NCBI GenBank assembly: GCA_903825645.1
Contig: CAIKBL010000040.1
Span: 124,001 to 188,000, forward strand
From: an uncultured Pseudomonadota bacterium
Lineage (GTDB): Bacteria > Pseudomonadota > Gammaproteobacteria > Ga0077536
Length of the DNA: 64,000 bases
Direction of reading: 5' to 3'
In this document: piece by piece, positions 3,298 through 36,030 of the stretch
How the letters are laid out: each line of letters starts with the position of its first letter
Numbering within the stretch: position 1 is the first letter of the stretch
Program-made: the position numbers and the translations under genes
The notes under the pieces: model-generated
Told to the model about the DNA's origin: nothing
What the model saw: the letters and a program-made list of their open reading frames with translations, nothing else
The model's database searches: none

Positions 3298-4005
3298 TCA
3301 ACCCTCCGCCGAAGCGATTTCGGCCGTAATCGCCGCGAGCGCCCGGGCCGGATCGCTTGCGCGGGTGATGGGGCGACCAATCACAAGATAATCGCCACCG
3401 GCATGAACAGCCGCAGCCGGCGTCGCGACACGCTGCTGATCATCGAGGCTCGCCTCGGCGGATCGGATGCCCGGGGTGACCGTCAACCAGTCTGCCCCAC
3501 AGGCTTGCTTGACTGCCGCAATTTCCTGCGGTGAGCACACCACGCCGTCAAGCCCGCACTGGTGGGCGAGGCGCGTGAGTCGCAAGACCTGACCTGCCGG
3601 GCTATCCGGAATACCCACGGCAGCCAGATCCGCCCCGCTCAAGCTGGTTAGGACGGTCACGCCGATGAGCAGCGGTCGGGGCTGCCAACCTTCGAGGCTG
3701 GCGCGCGCCGCGCGCAACATTTCCGGTCCGCCACTGACATGCACATTGATCATCCAGACGCCGAGCGCGGCGGCCGCCTGACAGGCTGCCGCGACCGTGT
3801 TGGGAATATCGTGGTATTTGAGATCAAGGAAGACGGGCTGACCACGCGCGACCAGTGCACGCACGATCGGCGGCCCCTCCCGCGTGAAGAGCTCCTTCCC
3901 TACCTTGAAGGCACAGGCGTGAGGTTCGAGCCGGGACACCAGCGCGAGGGCTTCTTCCCCGGTCGGATGATCCAGTGCCACAATAATCCGATGCGTACGC
4001 TTCAT
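3298..4005 (-). CDS. pyrF: Orotidine 5'-phosphate decarboxylase
   Basis: This enzyme catalyses the last step of UMP synthesis, OMP to UMP plus CO2, in the cytoplasm. The 235-residue product has the normal length for the bacterial TIM-barrel enzyme. It carries the active-site signature [10 protein letters not shown] at residues 61-70, whose Lys and Asp residues form the catalytic charged network, plus an early VALD strand (Asp12) and the FKVGKELF strand. The start overlaps the lapB stop by four bases (ATGA), indicating translational coupling. The order lapA-lapB-pyrF downstream of rpsA and ihfB is the usual gammaproteobacterial one. Confidence 0.98.
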
Positions 4006-5195
4006 TCGCCCTCGATACCGTGAATGGGTTTTATCTTGTTCCAGGATTTACAACTCGGACATTGCCAGTACACGGAACGCCCCGCAAATCCGCACTGCCC
4101 GCACTTATAAGTTGCCTTGGTCGCCAGCAACCGCACCGTAGTTTCTTTCAGAATCAGTAGATCTTCACGCGGCTCTCCTGCCACACCCGACAACGAATAG
4201 TCGATCAATCGATCGATGCCCCGAAGCGTCGGGCGAATCTTAAGTTCCTGCACCACATACCGTTTAGCGGCTTCGACCCCGCGCTGCTCTTCGAGCAATT
4301 CGGCCATCGCTAACATGGGGGAAGCGCTGATCCGCAAGCTCGCAAGACGGGTCAAATAGTCGGCAAATTCATCCATCCGATTCAGTTCCCGATAACAGCG
4401 CGCGAGCGGCGGAATGGCCTCGCTGACGAGCTCAATATCCTGATGCTCGATACGCTTCAAGGCTTGGATGGCCGCTTCATAATCTCGGTTAGCCAGCGTA
4501 ATGCCGGCCCCCATTAGGTTGGCCCGTGCGCAGCGGCGATCAGCATTGAGCGCTCGTTCGAGATAGGCTTGGGCTTCCGGGCGATTGCTTCGGTCGATCT
4601 CCACTTGCGCGAGTTCGCACAGAAAATGGGCACGTTCAACGCTTAGGTTCTCTCCGTTGGCAAGTTCGAGGCGCGTGCCGAAATCGAGGGCCTTCTCCCA
4701 GTCGCGCTCCTGTTGATAAATATCGATCAGGTGACGCAACGCGGCCGGCTGAAACAGGCCGAGATCGAGCAACTCGAGCAACAAACTTTCCGCCCGGTCG
4801 AGTAAACCCGAACGCATGTAATCAAGCGCAAGTTCGAGCAGCGCCTGGGCACGCTGACTGACGTCGAGCGTGGTGCGTGCCACCAGATTTTGGTGGATCC
4901 GAATAGCGCGGTCCACCTCGCCTCGGCGGCGAAAAAGATTACCCAACGCCAAGTGGGTCTCGATAGTGTCGGTTTCCACCTCGAGAACCTTCACAAAGAT
5001 CTCAATCGCCTTGTCCGGTCGATCATGCAACAGGTAGTTCAGACCTTTGAAGTAATCTGTCCCGATTTGGGGCTTGGTCTCGCGCGGGTACTTCGCGACA
5101 TCGGCGAACGGATCGCGGCGTGCAAAGTACCAACCGGAAAATGCCGCAACCGGCAACAATAGGGCCGTCAGGAAGAAAAGGGCTTCAATGCTCAT
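4002..5195 (-). CDS. lapB: Lipopolysaccharide assembly protein B (TPR protein)
   Basis: LapB (YciM) is an inner-membrane TPR protein that, with FtsH, controls LpxC turnover and so the LPS level. Of its 397 residues, the first 20 or so form a hydrophobic membrane anchor. A long run of helix-turn-helix TPR units fills most of the protein, and a rubredoxin-like metal site lies at the C-terminus, with Cys at about 365, 368, 379 and 382 in two CxxC pairs. Both hallmarks and the length agree with the family. The gene begins 10 bp after lapA and overlaps pyrF by 4 bp. Its functional partner ftsH lies elsewhere in this window (57066-58982). Confidence 0.96.
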
Positions 5196-29605: not shown

Positions 29606-32363
<2,758 letters not shown>

Positions 32364-34457
32364 ATGTCTGTGCCCGTACCAAAGACCTCTGTTTTTTCGG
32401 CTCTGCGCTGGCCGGCCGTCGTGGGCTGGTTGGCGGTTTCGGTCGTGGGGGCGGGGGCACTCGGTGCCATTGCCCTTAATCGCGGGGAAACTATCAACAG
32501 CGCCTGGTTTGTGGTCGCGGCCGCCTGCGTGTATGCCATCGGTTTTCGCTTCTATAGCTTATTCATTGCGACAAGGGTGTTACTGCTTGACTCCACTCGA
32601 GCGACACCCGCCGAGCGCCTCAATGATGGCCGAGACTTCGTCCCGACCAACCGCTGGATCGTCTTCGGCCATCACTTCGCCGCGATCGCCGGTCCCGGAC
32701 CACTCATTGGCCCGACCCTGGCAGCCCAGTTCGGCTATTTGCCGGGGACCCTCTGGATTGTGCTGGGTGGGGTACTGGGCGGCTGCGTACAGGACTTCAT
32801 CATTCTGTTTTGTTCGTTGCGGCGAGACGGCCGGTCCCTCGGCCAGATGGCGCGCGAAGAGATAGGCCCGCTGGGTGGATTCGCCGCGATGTTAGGCGTC
32901 GTCTTGATCAGCCTGATCCTCATCGCCGTTCTCGGACTCGTCGTCGTCAACGCGATGAAACACAGCCCCTGGGCGACCTTTACGGTCGCCGCCACGATCC
33001 CGATTGCCCTGCTGATGGGCATCTATATGCGCAATCTGCGACCCGGGCGGGTCCTCGAAGCGACGACGCTCGGCGTTGTGCTGCTCCTGTTGGCCGTCAC
33101 CGGTGGCGGTTATGTCGAAGGGATCCCCGCCCTGCGTAATGTCTTTGACTACGATGCGCCGACGCTCGCCCTGTTCGTCATCGCCTACGGATTTTGCGCC
33201 GCGGTGGTCCCCGTGTGGCTGCTGCTCGCCCCTCGAGACTATCTCTCTACATTCATGAAAATCGGGACGATCCTTGCGCTAGCGGTTGCCATTTTATTGC
33301 TTAACCCTTTAATTAAGATGCCCGCACTCACGCAATTCATCGACGGCACAGGACCGATTTTTTCGGGGAAACTTTTTCCCTTTGTCTTCATCACGATCGC
33401 CTGCGGCGCCATTTCCGGGTTTCACGCGATGATTTCATCCGGAACCACCCCGAAACTACTGACCAACGAGGCGGATGCCCGCATGGTTGGCTATGGCGCG
33501 ATGGTGGTGGAGTCGTTCGTGGCGGTGATGGCCATGATCGCGGCCACGGTGCTTGACCCTGGCGTTTATTTCGCGATCAACAGTCCCGCGGGAATCGTCG
33601 GTGCCGAAGCCGCTCAAGCGGTCGCCACCATCAGTAGTTGGGGTTTCCCGGTGAGTGTCGCCCAGATGAGTGCGCTTGCCCGGGACATGGGTGAAGCAAC
33701 GCTGTTCGCCCGGACCGGCGGCGCACCCTCCCTAGCCGTCGGGATGGCCAGTATCTTCGCGCAAATTACCGGGCCGGGCCTACTAGCCGTTTGGTATCAC
33801 TTCGCCATCATGTTCGAAGCCCTGTTTATCCTCACCACCCTCGACGCAGGCACGCGCGTGGCGCGCTTCATCGCGCAAGATTTTCTGGGGAACTTCATAC
33901 CGGCCCTAGGGCGCACCAGTTGGTACCCGAGCGTCCTGATCACCAGTGCGCTAGTGGTGGGTGCCTGGGGCTATTTCTTGTACCAGGGCACCCAAGATCC
34001 CCTCGGCGGCATCAATAGCATGTGGCCTTTGTTCGGCATCGCAAACCAGATGCTAGCGGCGATCGCACTGTGTGTGGCGACCACCGTCCTGGTCAAATCG
34101 GACCGTGCGCGCTATGTGTGGGTGACGGCCGTGCCACTCGCGTGGTTGTTACTGATCACGACCACAGCCGCACTGCATAAACTTTTCAACCCGTTGCCGA
34201 AAATAGGTTTCCTCGCACATGCCAGTGATCTCTCGGCAAAACTGGCTGCACATACCTTGCCCACACCGCTCGCGACCCTGGCCCCTCGGATGATTTTCAA
34301 TGATCGGCTAAACAGCGGACTTACCCTGCTGTTCATGGTGCTCGCCTGGGTGCTGGTCTGTGACATGGTGTGGGTTTGCGTTCGTCACCTGCGTGGCCAA
34401 GCGGGACGCCCGCTGGCGGAGGTAGCCTACGTTCGCACCGCGCTGACGCACGGCTGA
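32364..34457 (+). CDS. cstA: Carbon starvation protein A family transporter (CstA/BtsT)
   Basis: CstA-family proteins are multi-pass inner-membrane transporters of peptides or pyruvate, induced on carbon limitation in E. coli. The ATG at 32364, preceded by GAGGAAG, gives 697 residues with about 16 hydrophobic helices; an upstream in-frame start adds a non-hydrophobic extension and was rejected. Family signatures visible are RDFVPTNRWIVFGHHFAAIAGPGPLIGP near residue 90, GGVLGGCVQDF, SGFHAMISSGTTPKLL and FEALFILTTLDAGTRVARF. The small YbdD-type gene follows 7 bp later, as in other members. Whether the substrate is pyruvate or peptides cannot be told. Confidence 0.95.
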   Translation: MSVPVPKTSVFSALRWPAVVGWLAVSVVGAGALGAIALNRGETINSAWFVVAAACVYAIGFRFYSLFIATRVLLLDSTRATPAERLNDGRDFVPTNRWIVFGHHFAAIAGPGPLIGPTLAAQFGYLPGTLWIVLGGVLGGCVQDFIILFCSLRRDGRSLGQMAREEIGPLGGFAAMLGVVLISLILIAVLGLVVVNAMKHSPWATFTVAATIPIALLMGIYMRNLRPGRVLEATTLGVVLLLLAVTGGGYVEGIPALRNVFDYDAPTLALFVIAYGFCAAVVPVWLLLAPRDYLSTFMKIGTILALAVAILLLNPLIKMPALTQFIDGTGPIFSGKLFPFVFITIACGAISGFHAMISSGTTPKLLTNEADARMVGYGAMVVESFVAVMAMIAATVLDPGVYFAINSPAGIVGAEAAQAVATISSWGFPVSVAQMSALARDMGEATLFARTGGAPSLAVGMASIFAQITGPGLLAVWYHFAIMFEALFILTTLDAGTRVARFIAQDFLGNFIPALGRTSWYPSVLITSALVVGAWGYFLYQGTQDPLGGINSMWPLFGIANQMLAAIALCVATTVLVKSDRARYVWVTAVPLAWLLLITTTAALHKLFNPLPKIGFLAHASDLSAKLAAHTLPTPLATLAPRMIFNDRLNSGLTLLFMVLAWVLVCDMVWVCVRHLRGQAGRPLAEVAYVRTALTHG

Positions 34458-34660: not shown

Positions 34661-35458
34661 TCAGGATTTTGACGCCTGTAGATCGTCGATACAGAGACCA
34701 TCCCGTTCCGCGTAGTTGAGCAGACGGACATGGCTAGGAATGGCCGTCTGGCTGGGTTCGGTTAGGCACAGCAAATGGGTCGAATGCCAGACGCCAAGCA
34801 TCTCCGAAACCACTGGCGCCTGTTGTCCGTAGTATTGTGGATCGGCACGCACTTCTCGGTGCAGCATACCCAGCTCCTTTGCGAGGCTGCCAACGCTGTC
34901 GGTGCTGCGCGGGGCGCTCATGGCGCTGATGAGTGTGCAGGTATCCACGCCCCACAACGGCATCGAAGTCGCAATATAGTCTCTGAAACGTGCCCGCCAT
35001 TCATCACTCCGCAGACGATCAAGGGGATCGAACACTAAAATTCTCACCCCGTTGAGGATCCCGAACGCGCGTTGCCACAACGCTGGCAGCACACAGTTCT
35101 TGGGTAGCCCCCGCCAAAGCTCCGCCATCTCCACATCGTCATACTCGCCTTTATCGCAACCGAAGCGGGCGATACGGAACCGCCGATTGGGGTTGTTCCG
35201 GGCGTATTGGATAAATTCGGCGATGTAGCCTTCGAGCGCATCATGCGAGAGCAGTTGCCCTTGCGTGCCGCGGCAACCGACGCCATAGGCATTGCCATTG
35301 GGTCCCGCCCACACACTCGGGATCGCACCATGGAAGCGCGCGGCCGCGGCAGCCGCTCCTTCGGTCAGCGGATCGTTTTTAACCCGACAGCCAAATACGA
35401 ATACAGGCTCCGACGCAGGCTCGCGCACTGGAGAGGACTGAAAAACTGTCTGATTCAT
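34661..35458 (-). CDS. Orphan two-domain protein: A1S_2505-like domain plus degenerate SLOG-like domain
   Basis: This 265-residue soluble protein stands alone. Residues about 19-128 follow a pattern I associate with a family of phage and hypothetical proteins (A1S_2505-like): FVFG, GAAAAAARFHGAI, GNAYGV, EGYIAEFIQYARNNPNRRFRIARFGCDKGEYDD and NCVLPALW. Residues about 135-260 read like a DUF2493-type SLOG Rossmannoid domain: RILVF, then DSVGSLAKELGMLHREVRADPQYYGQQAPVVSEML and HLLCLTE. The glycine-rich nucleotide loop and the usual IRN motif of SLOG proteins are replaced (SAMSAPRST and VVSEML). No catalytic residue is identified and the function is unknown. A nucleotide or ADP-ribose-related binding role is inference only. 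Confidence 0.6.
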   Translation of the reverse strand: MNQTVFQSSPVREPASEPVFVFGCRVKNDPLTEGAAAAAARFHGAIPSVWAGPNGNAYGVGCRGTQGQLLSHDALEGYIAEFIQYARNNPNRRFRIARFGCDKGEYDDVEMAELWRGLPKNCVLPALWQRAFGILNGVRILVFDPLDRLRSDEWRARFRDYIATSMPLWGVDTCTLISAMSAPRSTDSVGSLAKELGMLHREVRADPQYYGQQAPVVSEMLGVWHSTHLLCLTEPSQTAIPSHVRLLNYAERDGLCIDDLQASKS

Positions 35459-36030
35459 GTGCTTATCATCCTACAAGGGACTCGAAACTCGGCAACTGCT
35501 CGTGGTATCGGCCACTCAGCCCGAAAATTAAGTACCGAGTCACGGGTGACGACGCGCCACTCAGCCGGTTTCCGGCACGTTCGGCGTCGTCCTGTGGGCG
35601 CACCAATGGCCGAAGGACTCGCCGGCGCATCAGTCCGCGAGCCAATCAAACAGATGAGATTCAACTGAAGTGCTGACGGGGCCGGTTAATCATGGATATC
35701 GGCACGCCGGGCGCGCCAAACCATGCGCCTTCCTCACGGCGAGGTCGTTAGCGATGGGCGGGAAAATAGCCGAAGAAACACCGCCATCACCAAGGCATGG
35801 GCCCCAGCACAATGCAGTACACCGAATCCGCGAGGACGACGTCATAGCCAAAATGTGCGACGCTCAAGCGGCACGCACCGCGTGATCTTCACGGTAGGAG
35901 AGGATAGGCATCTATCCGGTCGGCGCGTCTCGCGGCGGCATTCGTTCGCCGCGAGGCGCCTCCGGTCTCGCGTTACCCCAGCCGAGCCGGGTTCAGCCGG
36001 TCGGATCAGGCAACGTCCTGCCCGTCGCGG
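35459..36030. other. 572-bp region without a convincing gene
   Basis: Short reading frames cross this region on both strands, but none has a good start signal, recognisable motif or gene-like composition. It holds a strong hairpin (35925-35959) toward the peroxiredoxin side. The promoter of the orphan two-domain gene must lie at its left end. It is the longest non-coding stretch in the window and may hold gene remnants or an RNA. Confidence 0.6.
35925..35959. repeat. 13-bp stem hairpin downstream of the peroxiredoxin gene
   Basis: Bases 35925-35937 pair with 35947-35959 (nine perfect pairs CTCGCGGCG/CGCCGCGAG, then a G-T wobble and three more pairs) around a 9-nt loop. It starts 72 bp after the peroxiredoxin stop on the minus strand. 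No T-run follows, so it is a terminator-like or mRNA-end hairpin without a U-tract. Confidence 0.5.

Follow-up and report, generated by a model that had tools for sequence, protein, structure and literature searches.

A chromosomal macrodomain-SLOG protein family with replaced site residues in a gammaproteobacterial order

A chromosomal gene of an uncultured gammaproteobacterium encodes a protein in which an A1S_2505-type macrodomain is joined to a SLOG domain with altered nucleotide motifs, and which has probably been repurposed for binding instead of acting as a standard enzyme. The gene lies at 34661..35458 on the minus strand of the window (the whole stretch of 64,000 nucleotides that was analysed), is read from 35458 to 34661, and runs from ATG to stop over 265 amino acids, with an AGGA (35469-35472) that ends 10 nt upstream of the ATG. 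Frame 1 of the plus strand contains stops across the same interval, a promoter scan for the gene found none, and ARAGORN found no tRNA in the 64-kb window. Macrodomains and SLOG domains have a central place in immunity and counter-immunity based on NAD and ADP-ribose, and their union in one protein is an architecture already known in viruses; what is new here is the chromosomal clade with rewritten sites, and no description of a chromosomal degenerate macro-SLOG family was found in the open-licence literature.

The N-terminal half belongs to the A1S_2505 family and, in its predicted model, folds as a macrodomain of the DarG/TARG1 type. The domain was placed at residues 16-133 (35060..35413, minus strand) through a profile match, a fold match and hhalign. 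For example, residues 19-128 match the NCBIfam profile NF049995 (A1S_2505_Nterm) at E 2.2e-19 and 69.7 bits, which exceeds the curated cut-off of 45, a value also passed by all ten other proteins scanned (2 standalone phage proteins, 2 fusions and 6 family members), and phrog_2072 matches the same half at E 5.3e-18. When the N-halves of 13 family members were compared, as a profile, with a profile of six A1S_2505 proteins, hhalign returned 99.9%. The model of residues 1-134, built on 42 aligned sequences with a pLDDT of 91.6, matches the DarG macrodomain 5m31 with Z 10.4 (110 aligned residues, 2.5 A) and TARG1 4j5s with Z 9.9, these being the top solved folds for this half. Among the 50 fold matches listed, 31 are titled macrodomain, TARG1/C6orf130 or DarTG and 2 are YmdB, with most of the remainder being designed serine hydrolases, which have a scaffold of the macrodomain type. 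Phage Milano gp061 carries a macro-domain annotation, which agrees with this reading, and an earlier study that threaded A1S_2505 itself reportedly found C6orf130 closest (PMC6978653). Foldseek with the N-half model gave nothing at E <= 0.001, Pfam Macro PF01661 did not match the window protein (no Pfam family was reported at E <= 10), and PDB sequence searches with the single window protein, and with A6, gave nothing useful. An NCBIfam match to the SmdA transporter (E 0.0021) scored 16.5 bits where the cut-off is 845, and was rejected.

The C-terminal half (residues 136-265; 34664..35053, minus strand) is, according to its model, fold matches and family profile, a YpsA-like Rossmannoid SLOG domain. 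When the single sequence was searched against Pfam, NCBIfam and PADLOC, no SLOG match appeared in this half, and none to the YAcAr family PF10686 (Pfam cut-off 28.2 bits). The full-length AlphaFold model, built on 14 aligned sequences with a pLDDT of 89.6 and a pTM of 0.86, places it closest to YpsA 2nx2 (Z 10.8, 122 aligned residues, 2.7 A), then to ThsA 6lhx in its SLOG region (Z 8.8), with the matches after these at Z <= 7.3. Foldseek also placed YpsA first, at E 2.7e-3, with none at <= 0.001. In the comparison with viral models, unnamed phage proteins come first (22-27% identity over 113-145 columns), and several YspA/DUF2493 SLOG proteins appear after them. The profile of the family C-halves reached 95.9% (E 5.7e-9) against a SLOG profile of eight rows, five of them taken from fused proteins, and a non-significant 1.8% against a thin profile of three standalone phage SLOGs.

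Given these results, the two-domain structure proposed in the sequence-only reading stands on both profile and fold grounds, with its "A1S_2505-like" half now described more exactly as a macrodomain and its SLOG half assigned the Rossmannoid fold on which that reading had been staked. A chance resemblance of the two halves was rejected by the profile, fold and family evidence, the controls being 1.0% and 0.6% (N-half profile against two SLOG profiles) and 0.1% (one further profile comparison).

The residues of the predicted pockets were counted in 28 rows of the family (25 from the order and those of genomes G143, G223 and G094) and in five fusions, leaving aside the relatives matched by the N-half only (L027, L063-L067). 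The standalone phage A1S_2505 proteins have three loops (SN...GRHGxG, YAIPTK and IGCGLAGY), and the window protein, which is like them in fold and in passing the curated cut-off, departs from them in each. At the lysine column of the PTK motif, the fusions have K in three and R in two, whereas the family has R in 22, L in two, A in two and T in two, with no lysine in any of the 28 rows. The window residue here is Arg63 (35270..35272, minus strand), which a weak profile alignment (E 0.13) pairs with the lysine of TARG1; this sets the protein apart from the DarG and TARG1 macrodomains, whose K80 and K84, respectively, have a reported catalytic role (PMC9967889). The third macrodomain loop is altered, with Arg for Lys, in the Halomonas and phage fusions as well, and as these are two of the five mobile-type fusions, erosion of the macrodomain is not special to the chromosomal family. 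Gly52, Gly55, Tyr58 and Asn121 of the macrodomain are retained in 27 or 28 of the 28 family rows, so that ADP-ribose binding could persist, and the window protein departs from residues common in the family at Ala59 (25/28) and Pro61 (23/28).

In the SLOG half, where the YAcAr motifs have GSR, RN and GT, the window protein has FDPL, SE and AI. Asp144 (35027..35029, minus strand) stands at the glycine of the GSR loop, where Asp is found in 26 of the 28 rows of the family alignment, and Glu219 (34802..34804, minus strand) at the asparagine of the RN motif, which is replaced by an acid in all 28 (E 25, D 3), with Asp144 and an acid at 219 occurring together in 26/28; judging from the fold, these two acids would face one pocket. 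The glycine of the GT motif is kept in one of the 28 rows, in a gapped stretch. The alignment leaves the register of the glycine-rich loop (GxxRGAD) uncertain by one residue, and in the hhalign register the family keeps the first Gly in 24/28, the Arg in 16/28, the second Gly in 5/28 and the Asp in 1/28, the single row being that of the window, whose loop SAPRSTD retains Arg184 and Asp187 and neither glycine. These counts agree with the earlier observation that the glycine-rich loop and the IRN motif are altered. His200 and Thr238 are conserved in 25/28 rows each, and are absent from the fusions or present in one of the five.

The protein had been described as an orphan, which does not hold, given that 24 other places in the order encode it. 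The family is carried by 18 of the 36 genomes of the order (16 of the 23 of good quality) and by seven of its ten genera, at 25 places, where the homologues share the two-domain pattern. Six A1S_2505 proteins used as queries matched 25 places, all in these 18 genomes, so that no separate A1S_2505 gene was seen in the order. The family is missing from genera g2, g3 and g5, whose genomes measure 1.4-2.3 Mb and are in several cases incomplete. Eight of 274 genomes matched in a sample of the class, three of them from the same order, and the full-length matches outside the order in this sample are those of G143, G094 and G223, while a sample of the phylum gave 6/398, the five besides the window's own genome (G000) matching by the N-half only.

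Adjacent family copies occur in four genomes (G005, G013, G014 and G020), and the second copy of G005 (L004:2447-3229, minus strand) is very divergent, with 25% identity to the window protein and without the first macrodomain loop. Twelve relatives are found in titled records, of which eight are named Gammaproteobacteria bacterium (Lake Baikal or groundwater being the source of some), one Proteobacteria and three Klebsiella pneumoniae; the last three (L030, L037 and L041) are contigs of genomes in this gammaproteobacterial order, and the label looks wrong.

The gene is under selective constraint in the relatives measured. Six of nine pairs had dS < 1, and their dN/dS values of 0.106, 0.116, 0.101, 0.223, 0.265 and 0.177 (the last from a pair outside the order) indicate this constraint and led to the rejection of decay for those relatives; dN/dS was lower in the C-half than in the N-half in five of the six. 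The three other pairs were saturated in dS, including the window against G002 (dS 2.90). The tree, which is rooted at its midpoint only and leaves 13 of 30 inner branches open, groups the five fusions together (100/99) and gives the window row a long end branch (0.74).

The window gene has ordinary metabolic chromosomal genes as neighbours and gives no sign of phage or plasmid carriage. On one side lies a convergent cstA gene (32256..34457 for the longest frame, plus strand), which is conserved in two genera and stands convergent at 204-233 bp from the family gene in the window and in six relatives of these genera; on the other side are a redoxin-family gene and a class-V aminotransferase. The gene-poor stretch noticed beside the gene is real, as the next called frame is 573 bp away, and what is left of a PLP-dependent decarboxylase gene lies within it (35627..35849, minus strand), as two pieces of the N-terminal region in colinear order. 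The best single piece scores 29.6 bits, which was equalled by one of 300 shuffles; of six queries, three gave both pieces in this order and three gave one of them. These remains stand where relatives carry the gene and would explain the gene-poor stretch, which is most likely a gene ruin.

Upstream of the family gene and on the same strand, several relatives carry DUF4919, SIMPL and PLP-dependent decarboxylase genes, and the last is also found upstream in G013, of a third genus. The DUF4919 gene lies 15-167 bp upstream in five loci (L160, L163, L165, L172 and L174), and perhaps forms one operon with the family gene. Neither DUF4919 nor SIMPL was found in the window, and DUF4919 was not found in the window's own genome in a search run without a positive control. 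The neighbours differ in other genera, and no partner gene common to all genera was found with the crude gene caller used, which missed the family gene, and hence its distances, at L164, L167 and L168 (3 of 20 loci of the order) and at L177, L178 and L180 outside it. Genes for AMP-binding enzymes lie 0.3-2.7 kb from the family gene at L157, L158, L159, L162 and L179, in varying orientation, and nothing was drawn from them, given the size of the superfamily and the loose clustering.

Fusions of the same domain order, A1S_2505 followed by YAcAr, are found on plasmids of Acidiphilium and Halomonas, in the Pseudomonas phage QdP_Psa3 and in genome G289, and a fusion on a Rhodanobacter plasmid resembles them. 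They share a MAWxGTHL-like segment with the window protein, align colinearly with it and match it at the profile level. However, PF10686 was above its cut-off in all four fusions scanned, with the SLOG motifs intact, while the window protein is chromosomal, has no Pfam match, has lost the GSR, RN and GT motifs and has an altered glycine-rich loop. With the window protein as the query, a coverage of at least 80% was reached in one of 274 matching phage records and in two of 18 matching plasmid records, and a viral scan with one fused protein as the query gave no relative. In viral contigs, SLOG genes are linked to A1S_2505 genes at 6 of 80 A1S_2505 loci (the best 80 of 511), in comparison with 2 of 51 ThyX control loci; the two sets share one contig, and no excess is claimed.

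The G289 protein (L028:1378-2346) has DUF4326 ahead of the A1S_2505 macrodomain and a YAcAr SLOG with intact motifs. One frame of a viral contig (L128:3215-4348) matches both SLOG and A1S_2505, the latter at the end of the frame (4001-4327), so that the domain order seems reversed. The gp56 protein of the Rhodobacter phage RcIroh (L072:2992-3360) is annotated as an "ADP-ribosyltransferase", yet is an A1S_2505 protein (130.7 bits) of the macrodomain type; 14 listed records of Rhodobacter phages give the A1S_2505 match this name, RcIroh alone having been scanned.

Fusions of macro and SLOG domains in viruses, in which DUF4326 is a further partner, have already been published (PMC9503650; PMC7824862), and the 2022 paper predicts that viral macro- and SLOG-type domains counter ADP-ribose-derived immune signals (PMC9503650). 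The window protein is like these Macro/NADAR/SLOG fusions in that a macrodomain is joined to a SLOG domain, whereas those are predicted by their authors to act on ADPr derivatives and the window gene is a host gene in a conserved place with its site residues replaced (PMC9503650; PMC7824862). In the window's own genome, the families tried gave no link to conflict systems, and profile searches for Macro PF01661, TIR_2, DarT and YAcAr gave no match. The protein differs from DarG, given the missing DarT match, and from Thoeris ThsA, the second-best fold match of its C-half, as it has no SIR2 or further domain match and its genome no TIR_2 match. Across the order, TIR_2 is found in seven of the 36 genomes (5/18 carriers and 2/18 non-carriers of the family), counts too few to show a link, and DarT in one of the 36, the carrier G296.

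Several readings of the protein were weighed against one another. The one preferred here, to which a little less than an even chance is given, is that a phage- or plasmid-type macrodomain-SLOG fusion entered the chromosome of an ancestor of the order, where the gene would have been inherited and duplicated, its product turning into a non-catalytic binding protein, either a sensor or a regulatory scaffold. The direction of descent from mobile element to chromosome is likely, given the distribution of the family; the tree does not prove it. A binding role without catalysis is suggested because the folds are those of ADP-ribose or nucleotide binders and the key binding and catalytic positions have been replaced. 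Loss of motifs alone is no proof of the loss of catalysis, which may nevertheless be absent to judge from the residues. The SLOG site would have been re-lined with acids, the protein would act by binding, and the ligand of the pocket with Asp144 and Glu219 may differ from those of its relatives, which are phosphate-rich derivatives of ADP-ribose. A bolder version, in which the pockets of a phage-type fusion were rebuilt with acids for a new class of ligand, converting a mobile counter-defence protein into a housekeeping sensor of the host, is held to be unlikely.

The protein may, on the other hand, still bind or sequester ADP-ribose or cyclic ADP-ribose messengers, as a host sponge or a sensor of NAD signals, with the changes altering specificity only. 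There is a precedent in ThsA, whose SLOG domain binds 3'cADPR and whose macrodomains bind ADPR without the activities tested, as reported (PMC11204291), and both folds are retained here, together with macrodomain Gly52, Gly55, Tyr58 and Asn121 and, in a shifted register, Arg184 and Asp187 of the glycine-rich loop. However, acids replace the GSR glycine in 26/28 rows and the RN asparagine in 28/28, and the genome gave no TIR_2 or DarT match, which makes this reading a rather doubtful one. For the nucleotide or ADP-ribose binder proposed in the sequence-only reading, the macrodomain makes an ancestry of the ADP-ribose type concrete; several positions with an expected part in binding or cleavage carry other residues in each half, and the present protein may or may not bind such a ligand. 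An enzyme with a new chemistry, acting through Asp144 and Glu219 on, for example, a nucleoside or other N-glycoside, would account for two near-invariant acids at the columns of former nucleotide motifs, for the further conservation of His200 and Thr238 and for the lower dN/dS of the C-half in five of the six pairs with dS < 1, but the members have no common metabolic operon and their neighbours differ between genera, and the idea is distinctly unlikely. Least probable is that the gene is a relic which is being lost from the lineage of the window under relaxed constraint: the long end branch (0.74), the departures at Ala59 and Pro61, the decayed decarboxylase gene nearby and the absence of the family from half of the genomes of the order would fit, whereas the frame of 265 codons is open, the fold is confident and the dN/dS of the relatives is low, even though the window against G002 is saturated (dS 2.90).

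The clade keeps both folds under selection with the key site residues replaced, and offers a natural experiment on the role of these folds in the absence of their known ligand, as well as on how phage-type counter-defence genes might become genes of the host.
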